NCBI GenBank assembly: GCA_026400835.1 | Contig: JAPLOA010000054.1 | Coordinates: 1 to 64,000, forward strand | Source of the DNA: Planctomycetales bacterium | GTDB taxonomy: Bacteria > Planctomycetota > Planctomycetia > Planctomycetales > Planctomycetaceae | DNA length: 64,000 nt | Direction of reading: 5' to 3' | Part shown: positions 1 to 64,000 of the stretch, piece after piece | How the letters are laid out: every line of letters begins with the position of its first letter | How positions within the stretch are numbered: position 1 is the stretch's first letter | Notes under the pieces: generated by a model | What the model was told of the DNA's origin: nothing | What the model saw: the letters and a program-made list of their open reading frames with translations, nothing else | Databases searched by the model: none | Made by a program: the position numbers and the translations under genes

Positions 1-117
1 TTTCACTTCGGGGGGAGGGGCATTCCGCGCTGACTCCGAAACTCCGACAAATCAAACCTCGCATTGAAAGGAACTCGTCAGCACTCGACGACGATGCGAC
101 GAGCGTGAATAATCCGG

Positions 118-182
118 GTTTAACGGCAAGCCGCAGGCGACGGCTCTTGAATCGCACTGACGCCTGCGGCTTGCCGTTAAAC
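118..182. repeat. REP family A palindrome pair
   Basis: Two arms of about 22 bp in inverted orientation (118-139 and 161-182) begin with GTTTAACGGCAAGCCGCAGG and its reverse complement, separated by about 21 bp. The same arm recurs at 10731, 35065, 35866, 36155, 41754 and 63985. It resembles a REP/BIME element and lies just downstream of the stop of the 207-2537 gene. Nothing gene-like is seen in 1-117. Confidence 0.85.
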
Positions 183-10730: not shown

Positions 10731-10753
10731 CGTTTAACGGCAAGCCGCAGGCG
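10731..10753 (+). repeat. Solitary REP family A half-site
   Basis: CGTTTAACGGCAAGCCGCAG followed by GCG matches the family A arm exactly, but no inverted mate is found nearby. It lies 13 bp after the stop of the tail-anchored gene. Confidence 0.8.
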
Positions 10754-30985: not shown

Positions 30986-33900
30986 ATGAAGCTGTTTATT
31001 GCTCGACTGCTGCTTTCAGTATTAGCCGGGGGGTGTCTGAGTCTTCTCGGTTTGACACCGATCGCTTCAGCTCAGTCTTTGGACGACGCGCTTCGGCAGA
31101 CGCCGGTGGAAGATCTGGTGACACGAGCGAAAGCGGAGGGAGATGCAGCCAGAGGTGCGGTGGTGTTTTTTCAACAGCAAATGGCGTGTGCGAAATGCCA
31201 TTCGGTTGGTGGAACATTGCCGTCATCACTGGGGCCGGATCTTGCCACGTTGGTGAAAGAGACAACCGACGAAACAATTGTCGAATCTGTCTTGATGCCC
31301 TCGAAAGTGATTCGCAAGGGTTTTGAATCCGTCACGCTGGTAACAATTGATGGCCAATCCGTCGTTGGAATTCTTGTCGAACGCTCGGCAGAGAAAGTTG
31401 TCATCCGCGATGCGACTCGCAACGGGGAAGTGGTAACTTTTGCCATCGCTGATCTGGATGAAGTGATTGAGAATTCTGTTTCACTGATGCCAGCCGGTCA
31501 GATGAACCAATTGGCCAGCCAACAGCAGTTCTATGATCTGATCCGTTATCTGATGGAGATCCGCGATGGTGGGGCGGCTCGGGCAAAAGAGTTGCAGCCA
31601 TCTGCCGCCTTGCTGACTCTGAAAATTCCCGAGTACGAGCAACACATTGACCATGCGGGATTCATCCGGGAATGGAATGATGACGCGTACAAGCGAGGGG
31701 AGGCGATTTATCGCCGAGTCTGCCAGAACTGTCACGGCACGAAGGATCAAGCCGGTTCGTTGCCCACATCTTTAAAATTTGCCAGCGGAAAATTTCGCAG
31801 CGGCAGCGATCCGCACACAATGTATCAGACGCTGACCAAAGGCTTTGGCCTGATGGCGGCTCAAACATGGATGGTGCCGTCGCAGAAGTATGACGTCATT
31901 CACTTCATTCGTGAGACCTATCTGAAGCCGCACAATCCGTCTCAGTATGTCGAGATCAACGAGGCACTGTTAGCTCGTTTGCCCGCAGGAAATACTCGCG
32001 GCCCGGCACCGAGCACGATTCAACCGTGGAATGCCATGGACTATGGCCCCAGTCTGACTCATTCTTATGAGGTGCCGGGTTCGTTTCACAACATCGCCTA
32101 CAAAGGAATCGCGATGCGTCTCGATCCTGGCGCGGGCGGGGTTTCTCGCGGCCGGCATTGGATGATGTTTGATACAGATACGTTGCGAATGGCAGCGGCG
32201 TGGAATGCTGCTGACCCTCCCAGCTCCGAGCAGAACTTTATCGACTGGAGAGGAATCCAGTTTAATGGCGAACATCAGATTCATCCGACCGTCATGGGAT
32301 CAGTGCTCGCCTCCAATGGAACGGGGCCCGGCTGGGCGAATCCAGCGAATGGAGAATTCACAGACGATCAGCGTGTGCTGGGGCGAGATAATCTGCGTTA
32401 CGGTCCTCTGCCGCGAAACTGGGGACGATTCAAGGGCACTTATTATCATGAACAGCAGGTGATCCTTTCATATTCGATCGGCAATACAGATGTGCTGGAA
32501 CTGCCGTCCGTGCAGGTCAGCGATGAGCCGTCTCAGCCACCATTGTTCCTTCGCACATTCAACCTGGGGCCACGAGATCACGATCTGGTGCTGCAGATCG
32601 CTCAGAAAGACAATGCTGTCGGCGAGCGGCAGGGCGTCAGCCCTCCGAGCGATTCTCGTCCTGATGCAACGGTGAAGAAAACAGAAGACACACGGAAGGC
32701 CGATGCTCTGCCGCTCGCCGGCGGAGTGATTCGATTCGGCTCCGATCCGAAGATTGCATCCAATGCCGATGAAGCCCGCTTGCCTGAGTTCGACGGTCAC
32801 ACCTATTGCGAAGTCAAAGACGCCACAGACTTCGACATGACTCAGGATTTCACCATCACTGCCAGATTGAAAACTCGGACCGATGGGACGATCTTCGCAA
32901 TCACAAAACCCGACTCGCCATGGGTTCCGAATGGGCAATCGCTTTTTATTCGAGAAGGTCGGCTGACATTCGACATTGGCTGGGTCGGAGCAGTGACCTC
33001 GAAGAAAAAAATCACCGACGGAAAATGGCATGATGTCGCCGCTGTGTGGACGAAGGACATTCAGCAACTCACGCTGTTCGTTGATGGCAAGCCGAACGGG
33101 CAGGGACAACTTTTGGCCAACGGGAAGCTGACGGATGGAGTTGTTCGAGTGGGATTCACGTCTCCGAATTTCCCCGAATCGGAATCATTTTTCGCGGGGG
33201 AACTTGAGAATGTCCGCTTCTACAAAACCGCTCTGCTGCAGCAATTGAAATCTGGGTCATTGCTGAAAGATCGAAAAGAAGATCTTGTGGCTGAATGGCA
33301 GTTTCTCGAGACAATAGAGCCGAATACCCTGGTTGTCACGGACGCGACCGGTCACGGCCATGATGCGACTTTGATCCAGGGTAGCGAGCTGTCGGTTAAG
33401 CCGTCGACATTACTTGCAGGACTCGCACCGCCAACAATGAATGCCACCTGGTCCAGTCCTGATGGCCGACTACTGCTCACAATTCCGGCTGGCCAGGAAC
33501 CGCTGCGTTTCACCGTTTGGATATCGGCTGAAGACAGTCCTGGCAAAGCAACGCCGTCGATTTTACACACTGAGCAGGATCTTCATTCGCTCATTTCCGG
33601 CGGGCCAACTCGCTGGAATCAGAAGATCACAACTACCGCGACCATCGGTGCGTCGGACGGTCCATTCGCAACCGATTTTCTGACAGCCCCGGAGAATAAT
33701 CCGTGGCTCGCGCAGACTCGATTTACCGGCCTCGATTTCTTCGAGGATGGCCGCATGGCGGTATGCTCATGGGACGGAGATGTCTGGCTGGTCGATGGTT
33801 TCCTGAAAGGTGATCAGCTCATATGGCAGCGGATTGCCAGCGGGCTCTATCAACCACTCGGATTAAAGATTGTCGATGGGAAAATTCATCTCACGTGTCG

Positions 33901-35005
33901 CGATCAGCTGGCCGTGTTGCACGACCTGAATGGTGACGAAGAAATCGACTACTTTGAATGCCTCAACAATGATCATCAGGTGACCGAGCATTTTCATGAG
34001 TTCGCGATGGGGCTCCAGACTGATGCTGAAGGGAACTTCTACTATGCCAAGTCCGGACGACACGCATTGGAAGCTGTCGTGCCACATCATGGGACTCTGT
34101 TGAAAGTCAGCCGGGACGGTTCCGCAACCGAGATCCTCGCGAATGGGTTTCGAGCCGCCAATGGAGTGTGCTTGAATCCGGATGGTTCGTTTGTGGTGAC
34201 CGATCAGGAAGGGTTCTGGAATCCGAAGAACCGCATCAACTGGGTGACTCTGGCTGAAGATCGAAAGCCAAATTTTTACGGCAACATGTTCGGCTACCAC
34301 GATGTGAAGGATTCTTCCGACGACGCCATGGAGCCGCCTTTGTGCTGGATCACAAATGCATTTGACCGTTCGCCGGGAGAATTATTGTGGGTCAATAGTG
34401 ATCGTTGGGGGCCGCTGAATGGTTCTTTGCTGAATCTGTCTTACGGTTACGGCAAGGTGTTCCTGGTTCCGCATGAGTCCGTCGATCTGAAAGGCAAAGG
34501 TCGCCAGATGCAGGGCGGAATGATCGAACTGCCAATTCCGGCATTTCCCACCGGCGTGATGCGAGGCCGTTTTCATCCGGCTGATGGACAGCTTTATCTG
34601 TGCGGCATGTTTGCATGGGCTGGCAGTGCAACAACGCCGGGCGGCCTTTATCGTTTGCGGGCAACGGGGCAGCCCATGCATTTGCCCGCCGAACTTCATG
34701 CCACAACAAAAGGGATGAAGTTACGGTTCACAGAGCCGCTGAATCCAGACTCGATCAAAACTGAAAACGTTCGGTTGAAAGTCTGGTCGCTAAAGCGAAC
34801 TGCCAACTACGGATCAGAACATCACGATGAGCATTCTCTGGACATTACTGGCGTTGAACTTTCAGACGACGGCCTGATCTTAACGGTACTGTCAGAGATC
34901 AAGCCCACATGGTGCATGGAGATAGGCTACTCATTGCAAGCCGCCGACGGCAAAGCCATCAGCGGTGTGATCCATAACACGATCCATGGAGTCGCGTCAG
35001 AATAA
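30986..35005 (+). CDS. Large exported cytochrome c / LamG / propeller protein
   Basis: This is a 1339-residue protein with a signal peptide (1-29, ending ASAQ). First cytochrome c domain with C68-x2-C71-H72 (CAKCH), in the planctomycete PVC-type haem module. Second CxxCH is C246-x2-C249-H250 (CQNCH). Beyond about 370 comes a region resembling DUF6797 (SFHNIAYKGIAMRLDPGAGG), then a LamG-like lectin domain (about 595-755, FDGHTYCEVKDATDFD..). The C-terminal 450 residues resemble a glucose/sorbosone dehydrogenase-type propeller (DLNGDEEIDYFE, FRAANGVCLNPDGS). It looks like a multidomain periplasmic or surface redox protein acting on carbohydrates (inference). The gene stands alone. No membrane anchor other than the signal peptide is seen. 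Confidence 0.85.
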   Translation: MKLFIARLLLSVLAGGCLSLLGLTPIASAQSLDDALRQTPVEDLVTRAKAEGDAARGAVVFFQQQMACAKCHSVGGTLPSSLGPDLATLVKETTDETIVESVLMPSKVIRKGFESVTLVTIDGQSVVGILVERSAEKVVIRDATRNGEVVTFAIADLDEVIENSVSLMPAGQMNQLASQQQFYDLIRYLMEIRDGGAARAKELQPSAALLTLKIPEYEQHIDHAGFIREWNDDAYKRGEAIYRRVCQNCHGTKDQAGSLPTSLKFASGKFRSGSDPHTMYQTLTKGFGLMAAQTWMVPSQKYDVIHFIRETYLKPHNPSQYVEINEALLARLPAGNTRGPAPSTIQPWNAMDYGPSLTHSYEVPGSFHNIAYKGIAMRLDPGAGGVSRGRHWMMFDTDTLRMAAAWNAADPPSSEQNFIDWRGIQFNGEHQIHPTVMGSVLASNGTGPGWANPANGEFTDDQRVLGRDNLRYGPLPRNWGRFKGTYYHEQQVILSYSIGNTDVLELPSVQVSDEPSQPPLFLRTFNLGPRDHDLVLQIAQKDNAVGERQGVSPPSDSRPDATVKKTEDTRKADALPLAGGVIRFGSDPKIASNADEARLPEFDGHTYCEVKDATDFDMTQDFTITARLKTRTDGTIFAITKPDSPWVPNGQSLFIREGRLTFDIGWVGAVTSKKKITDGKWHDVAAVWTKDIQQLTLFVDGKPNGQGQLLANGKLTDGVVRVGFTSPNFPESESFFAGELENVRFYKTALLQQLKSGSLLKDRKEDLVAEWQFLETIEPNTLVVTDATGHGHDATLIQGSELSVKPSTLLAGLAPPTMNATWSSPDGRLLLTIPAGQEPLRFTVWISAEDSPGKATPSILHTEQDLHSLISGGPTRWNQKITTTATIGASDGPFATDFLTAPENNPWLAQTRFTGLDFFEDGRMAVCSWDGDVWLVDGFLKGDQLIWQRIASGLYQPLGLKIVDGKIHLTCRDQLAVLHDLNGDEEIDYFECLNNDHQVTEHFHEFAMGLQTDAEGNFYYAKSGRHALEAVVPHHGTLLKVSRDGSATEILANGFRAANGVCLNPDGSFVVTDQEGFWNPKNRINWVTLAEDRKPNFYGNMFGYHDVKDSSDDAMEPPLCWITNAFDRSPGELLWVNSDRWGPLNGSLLNLSYGYGKVFLVPHESVDLKGKGRQMQGGMIELPIPAFPTGVMRGRFHPADGQLYLCGMFAWAGSATTPGGLYRLRATGQPMHLPAELHATTKGMKLRFTEPLNPDSIKTENVRLKVWSLKRTANYGSEHHDEHSLDITGVELSDDGLILTVLSEIKPTWCMEIGYSLQAADGKAISGVIHNTIHGVASE

Positions 35006-35064
35006 GCCAAGACAAGCCAGAAAGATCAGGATCGCAGATCGATGCGAACAATCGTTCATCATTT

Positions 35065-35192
35065 CGTTTAACGGCGAGCCGCAGGCGTAGGCGAATTCAC
35101 TTCTCTATACAGAGCAGATCACATCGAGTCATAGTGGTCAATGGGTTCATTCGCAGGCAGGATTCCCTGGTGTTGCGGCTCGCCGTTAAACG
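35065..35192. repeat. REP family A palindrome pair, 3' of RAYT
   Basis: The left arm CGTTTAACGGCGAGCCGCAG (35065-35084) continues to GCG at 35087. The right arm GCGGCTCGCCGTTAAACG (35175-35192) is its inverse, with the outer part of that arm degenerated. It ends 12 bp before the RAYT stop codon on the facing side. The C-to-A/G variation at position 11 (GGCGAG versus GGCAAG) subdivides the family. Confidence 0.85.
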
Positions 35193-35204
35193 GTGGCCCG
35201 TGCG

Positions 35205-35831
35205 TTAGTAGTAGGTGGTCCAGCCGGCGGTGTTGATTCCAGCAAACGGCGACACAAAGCTCCATGACTGTGGTGGTTTCCCTTCGTTCTCGGGATTCCG
35301 TTCAACGTAGGCAATGGCCTGTCGAATGGCGTCCTCTGAATCGAGGTAGACTTTCCACTCATGAGCGGACCACATTCGAGGCGGACGGTCTCCGGGACTG
35401 ACGTTTGATTTCAGGGGATGATTGCCGACCTTCATCATCTCTGTGGTGCAAGCCCCCTTCAGCAGATTCACCATTCGTTCCACATGATAAACGTGTCTCG
35501 CAAGAACCAGATGAGTGTGCTCGGGCATGATCGCGCGAGCCCAGATGGTGTAGTTGCTCTTCTGGGCCTGTATTCTGAAGCCGTCGGCGATTGTTGATGC
35601 CTGTTCAACTGAAACGAACACCGGTGGATAACTCAGTGCCGCTTTTGCTGCATCACGGTCCAGGATCTCCTCCGCGATCAGCTCGTTGAGCTCCTTCCTG
35701 TCGAGTGTTTTGAGAGGTCTCCCAAATCTCGCGATCTCCCAACGTCGAACATAGTCCGACCACGAACCCCGAGGGTCATTCGGAAGCCAGAATCCATACA
35801 TCGGAAGGATGACGTGGTATCCATGGATCAT
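35205..35831 (-). CDS. REP-associated tyrosine transposase (RAYT, Y1 family)
   Basis: This 208-residue Y1-type transposase carries the HUH motif H105-T-H107 in IMPEHTHLV and the probable nucleophile Tyr175 in AIAYVERNP, the RAYT hallmarks. The N-terminal MIHGYHVILPMYGFWLPNDP is characteristic of the clade. Such proteins nick single-stranded REP/BIME DNA and are usually single-copy and domesticated. The ATG at 35831, preceded by GGAAACTGTC, is preferred. The longer ORF from 35960 runs back into the REP palindrome and would translate it (RIRLRLRLAVKR). Palindromes of family A flank the gene on both sides (35065-35192 and 35866-36004), as expected for a REPtron. It probably generated or maintains the family A copies in this genome (inference). 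Confidence 0.92.
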   Translation of the reverse strand: MIHGYHVILPMYGFWLPNDPRGSWSDYVRRWEIARFGRPLKTLDRKELNELIAEEILDRDAAKAALSYPPVFVSVEQASTIADGFRIQAQKSNYTIWARAIMPEHTHLVLARHVYHVERMVNLLKGACTTEMMKVGNHPLKSNVSPGDRPPRMWSAHEWKVYLDSEDAIRQAIAYVERNPENEGKPPQSWSFVSPFAGINTAGWTTYY

Positions 35832-35865
35832 GACAGTTTCCAAAGGCTCAGAGATACCGAAAACT

Positions 35866-36004
35866 CGTTTAACGGCGAGCCGCAGGCGTAGCCGAATTCG
35901 CGGCAGTTCGCTCAAACAAACTGACCAGGAATAACTCCTACGCGTATCGGAAGTATACACCCAGCTATAGGTCTGCGCCTACGCCTGCGGCTCGCCGTTA
36001 AACG
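35866..36004. repeat. REP family A palindrome pair, 5' of RAYT
   Basis: The left arm CGTTTAACGGCGAGCCGCAG begins at 35866 and the right arm CGCCTGCGGCTCGCCGTTAA at 35982, ending at 36004, with about 93 bp between them. It lies 35 bp upstream of the RAYT start. The sequence just after it (GAGAATGTTCAAGGTG) is repeated with two changes after the next palindrome (36220), so this part of the locus has been duplicated. Confidence 0.88.
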
Positions 36005-36154
36005 AGAATGTTCAAGGTGTGGCTAAGAATGAAGCCCATCGCCTACTGGCGTGCCCCTACCCGTTGGATTGAATGTCGGCAGGGGCGGTTTAGGCGAGCC
36101 ATTCAGAATCTTCGCCGAGATGTGAGAAGGCGGTCATTGGGCACTGCTGGAAAT

Positions 36155-36221
36155 CGTTTAACGGCAAGCCGCAGGCGTCAGTGGACTCAGTTCGCCTACA
36201 CCTGCGGCTCGCCGTTAAACG
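36155..36221. repeat. REP family A palindrome pair next to integrase remnant
   Basis: Arms CGTTTAACGGCAAGCCGCAG (from 36155) and CCTGCGGCTCGCCGTTAAAC (to 36220) are inverted and separated by about 23 bp. The left arm has the GGCAAG variant and the right arm the GGCTCG variant, so the two arms come from different subtypes. Confidence 0.85.
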
Positions 36222-36224
36222 AGA

Positions 36225-36449
36225 ATGCTCAGGGTGAAACGAAATCAACGGACCGCCAAGCCGCACATTCTTCAGCAGCTGATGCGACATGCTTCCATCA
36301 CAACGACTCTGACCTTCTACGTTCAGACAAACGCTGAAGAAATGGCCGAAGCTGTTTGGTCGGCATTTGACCGGAAGCTCGATTCTTCTACCAAATCGCT
36401 ACCAACACGAGAAACCGTAAACGAAGAAAGCCTTGAACCACGGACCTAA
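36225..36449 (+). pseudogene. Truncated tyrosine recombinase (integrase) C-terminus
   Basis: The 74-residue frame carries the C-terminal box of tyrosine recombinases: LMRHASITTTLTFYV, with the expected His and catalytic Tyr, then NAEEMAEAVWSAF. Everything upstream, including the catalytic Arg box, is missing: the frame begins directly after a REP palindrome ending at 36221. It lies 27 bp from the 3' end of tRNA-Lys, a usual integration site. Thus a lost integrative element is likely to have entered here (inference). The methionine at its start is not necessarily a real start codon. Confidence 0.8.
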
Positions 36450-36470: not shown

Positions 36471-36476
36471 GCGAGG

Positions 36477-36549
36477 TGCTCCCAGTAGGACTCGAACCTA
36501 CGACCTACGGATTAAGAGTCAGTTGCTCTACCAACTGAGCTATAGGAGC
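36477..36549 (-). tRNA. tRNA-Lys(CTT)
   Basis: The minus strand folds as a normal cloverleaf: acceptor GCTCCTA with TGGGAGC, D arm GCTC/GAGC, anticodon loop CTCTTAA (anticodon CTT), T arm GTAGG-TTCGAGT-CCTAC, discriminator A. The following bases read CCT, so CCA is not encoded. Confidence 0.93.
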
Positions 36550-36693: not shown

Positions 36694-38580
36694 CTACATC
36701 TGAACGCGAATTGGCTTGCTGCTGTCCGCCCAGGGATAACGAGGCATCTTGCTGCCGGGAATTCCGGCGGTGGCGGCTCCCGTTCCCACGGCCAGCAGCA
36801 GCAAAGGTATGCAGATCAGGCAAAGAATCGGGATCGCAACCATTTTGCGAAAGAAACCGCCTCGCCCCCACAGCCGAACCACAACGCTGGCCGCACAGAT
36901 CGCCAGCCAGGCGAGCCCAATGATCACAGCCAGCCCGGTGACTCGATCACGCTGCAGTGACATTCGCACGGTTTGCACAGCCGCCGTCTTGACAGATTCC
37001 GGAAGCTCAACCAACGCATACACGAACCGCATGTCCTGTTTGTCGGAACCGTCTTTTCCAACGGCCTGCAGTCGCTCAAACGTCTGGATTACGCACCCCT
37101 GCGATGTGGCTTCGTCAATTTCCAGTTTGACCAGCTGAGCCTGAGCCCGCAAAGCAGGCTCCAGAGATTCGTCGTACAACTTCAATTGTTCGGGCAGTAC
37201 TTCATTGATCGCCTTATTCAGCGGAGCAGTCGTGGATTCCCCGGGAAACAATGCATCAGAGCGAACGACGAATTGATGCGGTTGAGGACTATCGACCCAT
37301 GCTGGCGTCTCTTCGCCGACAAGTACTTCAGCAAGCTGTGCGCCCGCAGTCAGCTCGGCGTTGCCTTTGCCGTTACCAGTCGTTTCGGCCATCGCGACGG
37401 TGGTCGGTACTGACGTATCCTTCGTTGGGATTGATCGCGGCTCAGCGACCGCTGGAGTTACTGTGTCACCAGCGGATGCAGAAACCTCCGTCGGAGTTTC
37501 AGCGGGCCTCTTCAGAAACGTAGCAAGACTCTCCGCGATCGATTCGAGACTGCCATTGGCCAGAAACGGAGTCATCGGCGACAAGGCCGCGTCGAAAGCC
37601 GGCGTCAGTGGGATCAAAGCGTACTTCTGGCGAATAGGACCAGCCAGTTGAAAGACCACGATTTGCTTGTCAGACGATTCAACGGCTTCAGCGACATCGG
37701 CCGCAACCGAATTCTCTTCCTGCTGAGCTTCATTCAGCAGTGAACGAATCCACGGGCTGATGTGTGAGGCAAGTTCTGTTAATCGAGCCTGACGCTGTGC
37801 TGGCGTCTCCGCCGCTGGCTCTGCTGCCACGTCTGCACCTTCTGCGGATGTTGACGTTGGAGCATCGACTGCCGTTTTCTGTTCTGCAGTGTCGGCGGGC
37901 GTGGGTTCTACTGGCGAGACTTCAGCCGGGTTTGTTGTTGCTGTTGCTGGTTCGGCTGTTGCTGGTTCGGCTGTTGCTGGTTCGGCTGCTGCTGGTTCGG
38001 CTGCTGCTGGTTCGGCTGCTGCTGGTTCGGCTTTTGCTGGTTCGGCTTTTGCTGGTTCGGCTGTCGTAACGGCAGGAGTTGAGGCTGTTTCGAGCTGACT
38101 CGCCAGGGGATCCGGTGCCGGCTTACTGGCTTCGATGGGAACTTCAATCGGGGAATCAACAGGAATCAGTCCGCTCGGCTGTTGCACAGCCTGCAGACCT
38201 TCCGGACGTGCGTTTGCCCAGTGCTCCTCCATCAGAACAGGACCATCCAGAGTAAGCGCGACCTGGGGCTCATCAACGATCAGAACCGGTGAAGCTTGCG
38301 CCGCGCTCGGAGGAATAACCTGAACGCTGTGTGCGGAGCGAACTCTGAACAGAAACAGCGCCAGAACAATAAGGCAGACCGGCATGGCTCCGGCGATGGC
38401 TCCAGCAATCATGTGGCGGAATCCGAGGCCGCGGTGTTCACCGTTAGGTGTGTTTGTTCGGCCAATTAAAGAATTGCCCAGCCATGCAATCAGCTTGAAA
38501 ACTCCCAGCACCATGAGAATGGCAACAGGAGCGATCAGAAGCAGTGCAAAAAAGGTAAGGCCGAATAGTGGTGCTGCCAT
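36694..38580 (-). CDS. Membrane protein with Ala/Pro/Glu repeats
   Basis: This 628-residue protein has an N-terminal membrane helix (about 5-35) and a second (about 52-75), a long hydrophilic middle, and two C-terminal helices (about 548-568 and 583-610). The middle carries a run of eight five-residue units of the AEPA(K/A/T) type, encoded by 15-bp tandem repeats at 37940-38059. The C-terminal residues 330-540 hold small conserved-looking segments but no recognised domain. The layout suggests an envelope-spanning protein with a flexible spacer, of unknown role. It lies downstream of the kinase-FHA pair in the same orientation with a 169-bp gap, so a regulatory connection is only possible. Confidence 0.78.
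   Translation of the reverse strand: MAAPLFGLTFFALLLIAPVAILMVLGVFKLIAWLGNSLIGRTNTPNGEHRGLGFRHMIAGAIAGAMPVCLIVLALFLFRVRSAHSVQVIPPSAAQASPVLIVDEPQVALTLDGPVLMEEHWANARPEGLQAVQQPSGLIPVDSPIEVPIEASKPAPDPLASQLETASTPAVTTAEPAKAEPAKAEPAAAEPAAAEPAAAEPATAEPATAEPATATTNPAEVSPVEPTPADTAEQKTAVDAPTSTSAEGADVAAEPAAETPAQRQARLTELASHISPWIRSLLNEAQQEENSVAADVAEAVESSDKQIVVFQLAGPIRQKYALIPLTPAFDAALSPMTPFLANGSLESIAESLATFLKRPAETPTEVSASAGDTVTPAVAEPRSIPTKDTSVPTTVAMAETTGNGKGNAELTAGAQLAEVLVGEETPAWVDSPQPHQFVVRSDALFPGESTTAPLNKAINEVLPEQLKLYDESLEPALRAQAQLVKLEIDEATSQGCVIQTFERLQAVGKDGSDKQDMRFVYALVELPESVKTAAVQTVRMSLQRDRVTGLAVIIGLAWLAICAASVVVRLWGRGGFFRKMVAIPILCLICIPLLLLAVGTGAATAGIPGSKMPRYPWADSSKPIRVQM
37940..38059 (-). repeat. 15-bp tandem repeat, eight copies
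   Basis: Eight consecutive copies of GCTGTTGCTGGTTCG and close variants (three GCTGTT, three GCTGCT, two GCTTTT) lie inside the 36694-38580 gene and encode five-residue Ala/Pro/Glu units. Copy number is likely to vary between strains. Confidence 0.95.
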
Positions 38581-41753: not shown

Positions 41754-41818
41754 CGTTTAACGGCGAGCCGCAGACGCAGGCGAAAAATCCCGCAACGCCT
41801 GCGGCTTACCGTTAAACG
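41754..41818. repeat. REP family A palindrome pair
   Basis: Arms CGTTTAACGGCGAGCCGCAG (from 41754) and CGCCTGCGGCTTACCGTTAA (41796-41815) are inverted with about 20 bp between. It lies next to the terminator of the 41964-42782 gene. Confidence 0.85.
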
Positions 41819-63984: not shown

Positions 63985-64000
63985 CGTTTAACGGCAAACT
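63985..64000 (+). repeat. REP family A arm cut by window end
   Basis: CGTTTAACGGCAAACT begins a family A arm 161 bp after prfB; it diverges from the consensus in its last five bases and is truncated by the window. The 3' spacer 63824-63984 has no gene. Confidence 0.6.

Follow-up and report, generated by a model that had tools for sequence, protein, structure and literature searches.

In a 64,000-nucleotide stretch of DNA from a Planctomycetales bacterium (hereafter the window), a gene for a RAYT-like transposase is bracketed by inverted palindromes that recur throughout the same genome. The arrangement is best explained as a REPtron (probability about 0.85), in which a domesticated Y1 HUH transposase of the RAYT/TnpAREP kind is accompanied by a population of REPINs that it has most likely spread. 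The evidence comprises the anatomy of the unit, the copy number and pairing of the palindrome arms, the conservation of a short tag, covariation within the adjoining hairpin, co-occurrence of gene and repeat across genomes, and presence or absence of the elements at matching sites in congeners. An initial annotation of this DNA had proposed that a RAYT and a REP family of its own make up a REPtron-like unit, and the proposal is upheld by the enrichment of the arms, their fixed-size doublets, their intergenic placement, tags on both sides of homologous genes, gene-repeat co-occurrence and a REP boundary against a related genome, G101. Its suggestion that a planctomycete REP-RAYT pair would be a first of its kind does not hold, since the main text of PMC3733652 already describes different REP families in Rhodopirellula baltica, along with numerous tyrosine transposase genes flanked by repeats. 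What is new, as far as searched, is a planctomycete clade of RAYTs, marked by a WLPNDPRG motif, that has its own tag and is spread over planctomycetes.

The transposase gene runs on the minus strand from an ATG at 35831 to a TAA at 35205-35207 (Table 1). A Y1 transposase of 208 residues with H105-T-H107 and Tyr175 had been read from the sequence initially, and both the open reading frame and an alignment of 22 homologs agree with this. H105 and Y175 are invariant in the alignment and H107 is nearly so; N179 and P180 are likewise invariant, and the WLPNDPRG block near the N-terminus is conserved. In-frame stops occur in 6 of 101 homolog rows, and the window frame is intact with its catalytic residues. 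A longer, GTG-started frame that reaches into the palindrome had been taken to show DNA shared by element and gene. It is only the mechanically chosen first GTG and lacks support as the gene: the homologs align from the ATG, mostly with M[IV]HGYH. The transposase had also been called single. This is true of the locus; elsewhere the genome contains a second relative with an in-frame TAG, on contig C103, and 19 matches to Pfam Y1_Tnp at E<=0.001.

Several properties of the protein bear on its classification. The Y---NP arrangement around the catalytic tyrosine is the signature of TnpAY1 class 2 according to Table 1 of PMC6006769, and the window protein and its aligned homologs carry it. The RAYT definition asks for a hydrophobic middle residue in the HUH motif, where the window protein has Thr and its homologs have V, T, I, L or others. 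Further, the RAYT criterion stated in the sections of PMC2817692 used here is NP(L/V)(R/K)xG adjoining the Tyr; the window protein reads NPENEG at this position, and several homologs read NPVKEG or NPLKEG. The score against the NCBIfam model REP_Tyr_transpos is 40.2 bits (E 2.9e-10), below the cut-off of 80, and that against Pfam Y1_Tnp is 17.1, below the cut-off of 23, a value that homologs L042 and L056 exceed and L040 does not. A family profile aligns with the E. coli RAYT by hhalign (E 5e-6), with HUH, W and YxxxNP in register. An AlphaFold model of the protein (pLDDT 80, residues 17-45 below 50) has ISDra2 TnpA as its nearest fold match (E 8.9e-6), together with the E. coli RAYT-REP complex 4er8 (E 1.8e-4), at TM-scores by query of 0.44-0.46. 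In a tree of 34 rows the planctomycete RAYTs make up one side of a branch with 89/89 support that is present in 87% of bootstrap trees, a moderate support for the clade in a tree with long branches elsewhere. Since the clade falls below the NCBIfam cut-off, it lies outside the equivalog by that model; we regard the window protein as a member of a diverged RAYT-like branch that, by analogy, probably works like a RAYT.

Table 1. Features of the REPtron-like unit and related repeats in the window
Feature	Position	Strand	Details
RAYT-like HUH/Y1 transposase gene, 208 aa	35205..35831	minus	ORF, 22-homolog alignment, fold and profile matches
Motifs of the RAYT protein			PEH105-T-H107, W154, Y175-V-E-R-N-P; WLPNDPRG near N-terminus
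REP pair 1	35066..35192		Arms 35066-35087 (left) and 35174-35192 (right; partial, 19 bp); on the downstream side of the gene
REP pair 2	35867..36003		Arms 35867-35888 and 35982-36003; upstream of gene; long 137-bp unit
REP pair 3, canonical 65-bp REPIN	36156..36220		Arms 36156-36177 and 36199-36220
Whole REPtron-like unit	35065..36221		G101 counterpart is a 145-bp REP-ended unit
65-bp REPIN, same arms	118..182		Left side (1-117) adjoins other repeated DNA
Single REP arm	10732..10753	plus	Partner searched, none found
63-bp REPIN	41755..41817		Compared with sites in relatives
REPIN start, cut by window end	63986..64000	plus	Partner arm at G000:C10:64029-64050; complete in contig

The REP unit is a 22-nt arm of the form GTTTARC-N4-A-[3-bp stem]-3-nt loop-[stem]-G, in which the A after N4 is usual and the loop is often GNA, and two inverted arms form a REPIN of 64 bp. 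The distances first reported around the gene hold (12 bp from the stop to the arm, about 34 bp from the arm to the ATG and 152 bp between pairs 2 and 3), and the other copies noted in the window, at 118/161, 10732, 41755/41796 and 63986, are real. With up to 3 mismatches allowed, the arm GTTTAACGGCGAGCCGCAGGCG is matched 10 times in the window, as against 0 expected from 100 shuffles. A genome-wide count, set at the outset as a check on the proposal, gave 116 forward and 119 reverse matches (235 in 7.58 Mb, at up to 3 mismatches), compared with 0 + 0 for the reversed-pattern control; exact copies number 39 among the matches listed. At 30 loci around exact arms and in the window, there are 28 distinct inverted pairs and 5 single arms. 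The pairs span exactly 64 bp in 19 of 28 cases and 60 to 65 bp in 26, the two long ones (126 and 137 bp) being those on either side of the RAYT gene. REPIN centres fall within stop-to-stop frames of at least 200 aa in 2 of 26 cases, compared with 81% of points placed at random in these loci; for frames of at least 150 aa the corresponding values are 6 of 26 and 84%. In the source genome the repeated unit is an intergenic, high-copy inverted doublet, as expected of REPINs, and the gene is flanked by inverted REPs that recur in the genome, as expected of a RAYT.

Many REPINs lie inside a larger imperfect inverted repeat, TGTTGATTTAGTC ... GACTAAATCAACA (for example L010, L015 and L027), with an asymmetric GAGCGTTTTC stretch on one side of this larger palindrome. 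The shared flanks (TGTTGATTTAGTC and its complement), a weaker pattern than the arms themselves, suggest that copying sometimes takes in more than the arms. Four REPINs near contig ends (window 1-117 and the ends of G000 contigs C71, C38 and C72; L223-L225) have GTTAAAC leading straight into CCGGATTATTCA, after which either of two distinct sequences follows. These may be insertion sequences that target REP ends, which would also break the assembly there.

The tag is closely tied to the gene family. After de-duplication 88 homolog loci were obtained, of which 80 with at least 200 bp on either side were usable. GTTTA[AG]C lies within 250 bp on both sides of the gene at 64 of these 80 loci, where the distal density predicts 0.07; it lies on one side at 5 and on neither at 11. 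Near the gene the tag occurs at 6.2 per kb, falling to 0.12 per kb beyond 600 bp. Five of the 11 loci with no tag on either side have GTTTCGC or GTTTGAC within 500 bp, as counted in a 94-locus set with some double entries. Tagless exceptions are L058, L068, L126, L140, L142 and L152, three of them with words like GGTTAGC or ATTTAGC. In a pattern-free check of 94 loci with at least 150 bp on both sides (duplicates retained), an exact word of at least 13 bp, often GTTTA-ended, is common to both flanks in 80. The 5' tag reads GTTT-A-R-C in 55 of 60 distinct 22-mers taken from 77 of the 94 loci, a figure that concerns the A at position 5, the only tag position left free by a pattern that fixed GTTT, R and C; near-duplicates remain in this set, as in the Mantel test below. 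These arms have neither GTAG nor GT[AG]G as a foot 5' of the hairpin, and so fall outside the GTAG-REP super-family; only some copies have a GTAG, located on the 3' side of the hairpin.

A hairpin follows the tag. The bare 22-mer of the window folds no better than its own shuffles (z 0.64), and the full inverted pair folds as a long hairpin, as any inverted repeat would. Single-arm folding energy being uninformative, an energy-free covariation test was used instead, on 50 of the 60 distinct 22-mers, the 10 with other loop lengths having been excluded by hand. Stem cells are paired in 92.0% of cases, compared with 70.2 +/- 2.1% in shuffles; two-sided stem changes number 26 as against 4.6, and the stem covariation score is 0.539 as against 0.134. 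None of these three values was reached by any of 500 shuffles, and slid controls score lower on all of them. The number of stem pairs with two-sided changes is not striking (3 versus 2.0, with 126 of 500 shuffles reaching 3), and neither is that of further pair types, 8 versus 5.6, a count that 20 of 500 shuffles reach and two slid versions, with 9, surpass. The Watson-Crick fractions over all 60 22-mers are 0.80, 0.90 and 0.75. With a six-position stem pattern of fixed G/C, full pairing was found in 38 of 54 distinct genome-sequence combinations among the matches listed (1/8 if unconstrained), a descriptive figure because copies within a genome are related. By eye, several members lengthen the stem around a GA/GA mismatch, as in CGC-GA-GCC-GTA-GGC-GA-GCG.

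The gene and its repeats tend to occur in the same genomes. A species-genome scan gave 406 relatives of the protein family, and among the titles of the best 80 of 406 there are 79 planctomycetes by name and one Vicinamibacteraceae (L148). In 150 family genomes, RAYT and REP occur together in 17, RAYT only in 15, REP only in 18 and neither in 100 (Fisher p 2.7e-5), where a close RAYT was taken at E<=1e-20 (32 genomes) and REP presence as at least 10 copies of one of two REP patterns (35 genomes). RAYT distance and REP distance are correlated (Mantel r 0.45, reached by 0 of 5000 permutations), a value that shared descent alone could yield; the Fisher and Mantel values both ignore shared ancestry, and the Fisher set includes draft genomes. 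Fewer than 10 copies of either REP pattern are present in 15 of the 32 RAYT genomes, the patterns covering only some stem types. Copies of the general REP pattern number 245 in N. pilleata, 256 in Ca. Laterigemmans baculatus, 166 in R. sallentina, 31 in ZRK34 and 23 in R. maiorica; the R. baltica strain searched (BR-MGV) has a RAYT of the clade (L092) but 1 copy of the tested pattern. The reversed control pattern matched once in all six named species together.

The REP-rich genomes in which a search with the window protein found no close RAYT (18 of 35) count against a strict dependence of REPs on the RAYT. A profile search of these 18 gave a clear clade member in 1 (G123, E 1.6e-48, with no matching tags), weak Y1 relatives in 14 (E 4e-19 to 4e-4) and none in 3. 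Matching tagged REPs were found at one of the 30 profile hits checked out of 40; this hit, in G106, is a fragment some 25 residues long that lies at the end of a contig, with REPs on its one available side. Three other hits have a single tag with unrelated sequence. Two outcomes had initially been named as telling against a REP-RAYT pair, and they fared differently: a lack of arm enrichment was not seen, and arms in relatives without a RAYT were seen in part, as G138 and G081 carry arms with no close RAYT match. We tentatively read the REP-only genomes as cases of RAYT loss or of gaps in draft assemblies, because one would expect to meet REPINs at a distance from the gene. General-pattern copies number 52-189 in G109, G006, G010, G138 and others, whose assemblies have no close RAYT; G109 is 99% complete and gave zero profile hits.

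Comparison with relatives helps to delimit the unit. G101 is 90% identical to the window over 33000-35075, and the identity stops inside the left arm, at 35075. The G101 site (L160, contig C42) has a 145-bp unit that starts with CGTTTAACGGC and ends with GACGTTAAACG, with no RAYT inside. On the right, homology is regained at 36213, in the right arm of pair 3, for 45 bp at 84%, and the flank AGAATG.TCAGGGTG...TCAACGGACCGCC is common to both genomes. Past this match C42 consists of other DNA, and the right-hand neighbours of the window lie on G101 contig C295. Thus, the left REP boundary stands out clearly, and that on the right depends on a short match. Nested inside the G101 unit are two GTAG-led hairpins, GTAGTAGGCACATTCCATGTGCC and a partner. 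They were considered as a second REP family and rejected: GTAGNAGGCACANNNNNTGTGCC, at 1 mismatch, has 1 site in the window's own genome and 0 in the six named species, and hence does not represent a big family in the seven genomes searched.

In G147, three contigs share the corresponding DNA. A RAYT 84% identical to that of the window lies with its REPs on C94, the left neighbour finds its match on C317, where no tag adjoins it, and the region to the right of the unit matches C357. At L079, apparently the same copy, the REPtron stands among ORFs that by eye resemble type I restriction genes, and REPs contain the starts or ends of ORFs at this locus (e.g. ...KSFNGEPQA). Where the window has the REPIN at 41755, the corresponding positions of G147, G053 and G081 are without a tag, and G101 has its right end only. 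The second RAYT relative of the window's own genome (C103:75153-75776, L222) is 56% identical, has one in-frame TAG and is flanked by its own, slightly different REPs. It is syntenic with the G101 RAYT (92.5% over 2400 bp), a copy with HTY where HTH is expected. On our reading, the window RAYT may have arrived later, in a lineage where an older RAYT had decayed, and may have come by transposition, inter-REP recombination or transfer. Just past the unit is a tRNA-Lys gene (36475-36549), and G138 has other DNA ahead of the same tRNA-Lys. An ORF between unit and tRNA (36225-36449) looks by eye like the end of a tyrosine integrase; a Pfam search with it gave nothing useful, and no integrase is claimed. 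Further on, tandem Pro-Ala-Glu repeats occupy 37900-38160 within a predicted 628-aa protein on the minus strand.

The same observations can be read in other ways. An IS200/IS605-like insertion sequence moving its own gene would account for the HUH/Y1 fold nearest to ISDra2 TnpA, for a unit that is REP-bounded relative to G101 and for the 84%-identical G147 copy at another site. However, inter-REP recombination or horizontal transfer would explain the change of position equally well, and the genome has one intact copy and one 56% relative rather than many near-identical transposase copies. The signature is Y---NP where that of IS200 is Y---Q (Table 1 of PMC6006769), and hundreds of short hairpin copies are without a gene; this reading is improbable. 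Slightly more improbable still is a reading in which a conventional DNA transposon, MITE or TIRtron served by another transposase contributes the arms as its terminal inverted repeats, with the RAYT as a passenger. The sampled REPINs do often sit in the larger inverted repeat, so that the repeated unit can extend about 30 bp past the arms, and arms are also present in RAYT-less genomes, but the outer repeat is patchy and carries far less information than the arms do. The tagged unit, moreover, covaries as a small hairpin; the tag accompanies RAYT homologs down to about 43% identity, and none lies beside the 8 other Y1 genes that were inspected out of 19 in the genome.

A role of the REPs for the host deserves more weight, although we consider it unlikely as the explanation of the unit. 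Here the host would keep REPs as terminators, mRNA-end stabilisers or protein-binding sites, and the association with the RAYT would be historical. Intergenic placement fits this, as do the REP populations without a RAYT, the in-frame stop in the second RAYT of the genome and the position of the 41755 REPIN, which by eye adjoins a terminator-like palindrome common to relatives. Against it, presence or absence between congeners at the two compared sites, together with the many exact copies, suggests turnover rather than fixed sites, and the window RAYT retains an intact frame and its catalytic residues. A host function is in any case compatible with the REPtron reading, and the two are not exclusive.

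For a REPtron, a mechanism can be proposed by analogy. The REP would fold in single-stranded DNA during replication or repair, and the RAYT would read the unpaired GTTTARC tag, in place of GTAG, plus the hairpin. Tyr175 and the metal-binding His pair would then cut near the arm, and the cut ends might be rejoined elsewhere, by which REPINs would reach intergenic sites. Binding, cutting and movement by the RAYT are taken over here from the E. coli, Stenotrophomonas and Marinomonas systems. Cleavage rules of RAYTs are treated in PMC8266576, where the RAYT experiments covered in the text consulted all concern GTAG systems, and RAYT-REP co-evolution is treated in PMC2817692.

We further suggest, tentatively and at somewhat less than even odds, that GTTTARC REPs and WLPNDPRG RAYTs stand next to GTAG and CGTC as a third super-family of tagged REPs, one that is old in the Planctomycetota. 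Its tag recognition would have been re-invented or have diverged while the hairpin co-evolved, and its REP-bounded RAYT unit would be able to change position. According to PMC6006769 (in part), REPtrons known so far do not move as a unit. A search for GTTTA-tagged REPs in the running text of mostly open-access papers found none. A large RAYT clade with a different conserved tag would provide a natural experiment on tag reading and on the choice of cleavage site, in which the residues contacting GTAG in E. coli could be compared with those of the planctomycete clade. With named hosts that have rich REP populations, excision and tag specificity are directly testable.

Among known systems, TnpAY1 class 3 (PMC6006769, in the sections available) has a planctomycete bias, extended N-terminal conservation and high-copy non-GTAG hairpins with a CnGA foot, non-GTAG hairpins being described there for class 2.6 and class 3. 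Some members here agree with the CnGA foot (CGGA), whereas the window family, with GCGA, does not. Class 3 was dropped as an assignment, as its Y motif is YV[VI][AENY]EQ and that found here is YxxxNP. The GTAG- and CGTC-tagged REP super-families and the TIRtrons are presented in PMC3733652. According to its main text, those super-families, like the GTTTARC REPs, combine a variable hairpin with a short terminal tag that is conserved and unpaired, and planctomycete hosts are already included. The tag here is neither GTAG nor CGTC, and the CGTC repeats of that paper are without a transposase, whereas the present ones have one; the distinction is drawn from the running text of that paper, and overlap with the repeats in its figures and additional files is possible.

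The REPINs of Pseudomonas fluorescens SBW25, as described in the text of PMC3116915, are likewise fixed-size inverted doublets (71 bp for GI by the measure of that paper, 64 bp here), extragenic and of high copy number, with clusters beside the RAYT and compensating changes. Their tag and host phylum differ, and excision was seen there by sequencing, whereas we infer it here. The E. coli REPtron (TnpAREP/RAYT b0228, GTAG-REPs, 4er8) differs in its tag, GTAG there and GTTTARC here, and in its protein, which has 165 aa and no WLPNDPRG block, compared with about 208 aa and the block here. The two systems nevertheless share the HUH/Y1 fold, an alignable PEHxH, downstream W and YxxxNP, inverted REP pairs that flank the gene, and imperfect hairpins with an internal mismatch, as the E. 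coli REPs are described in part of PMC8266576.
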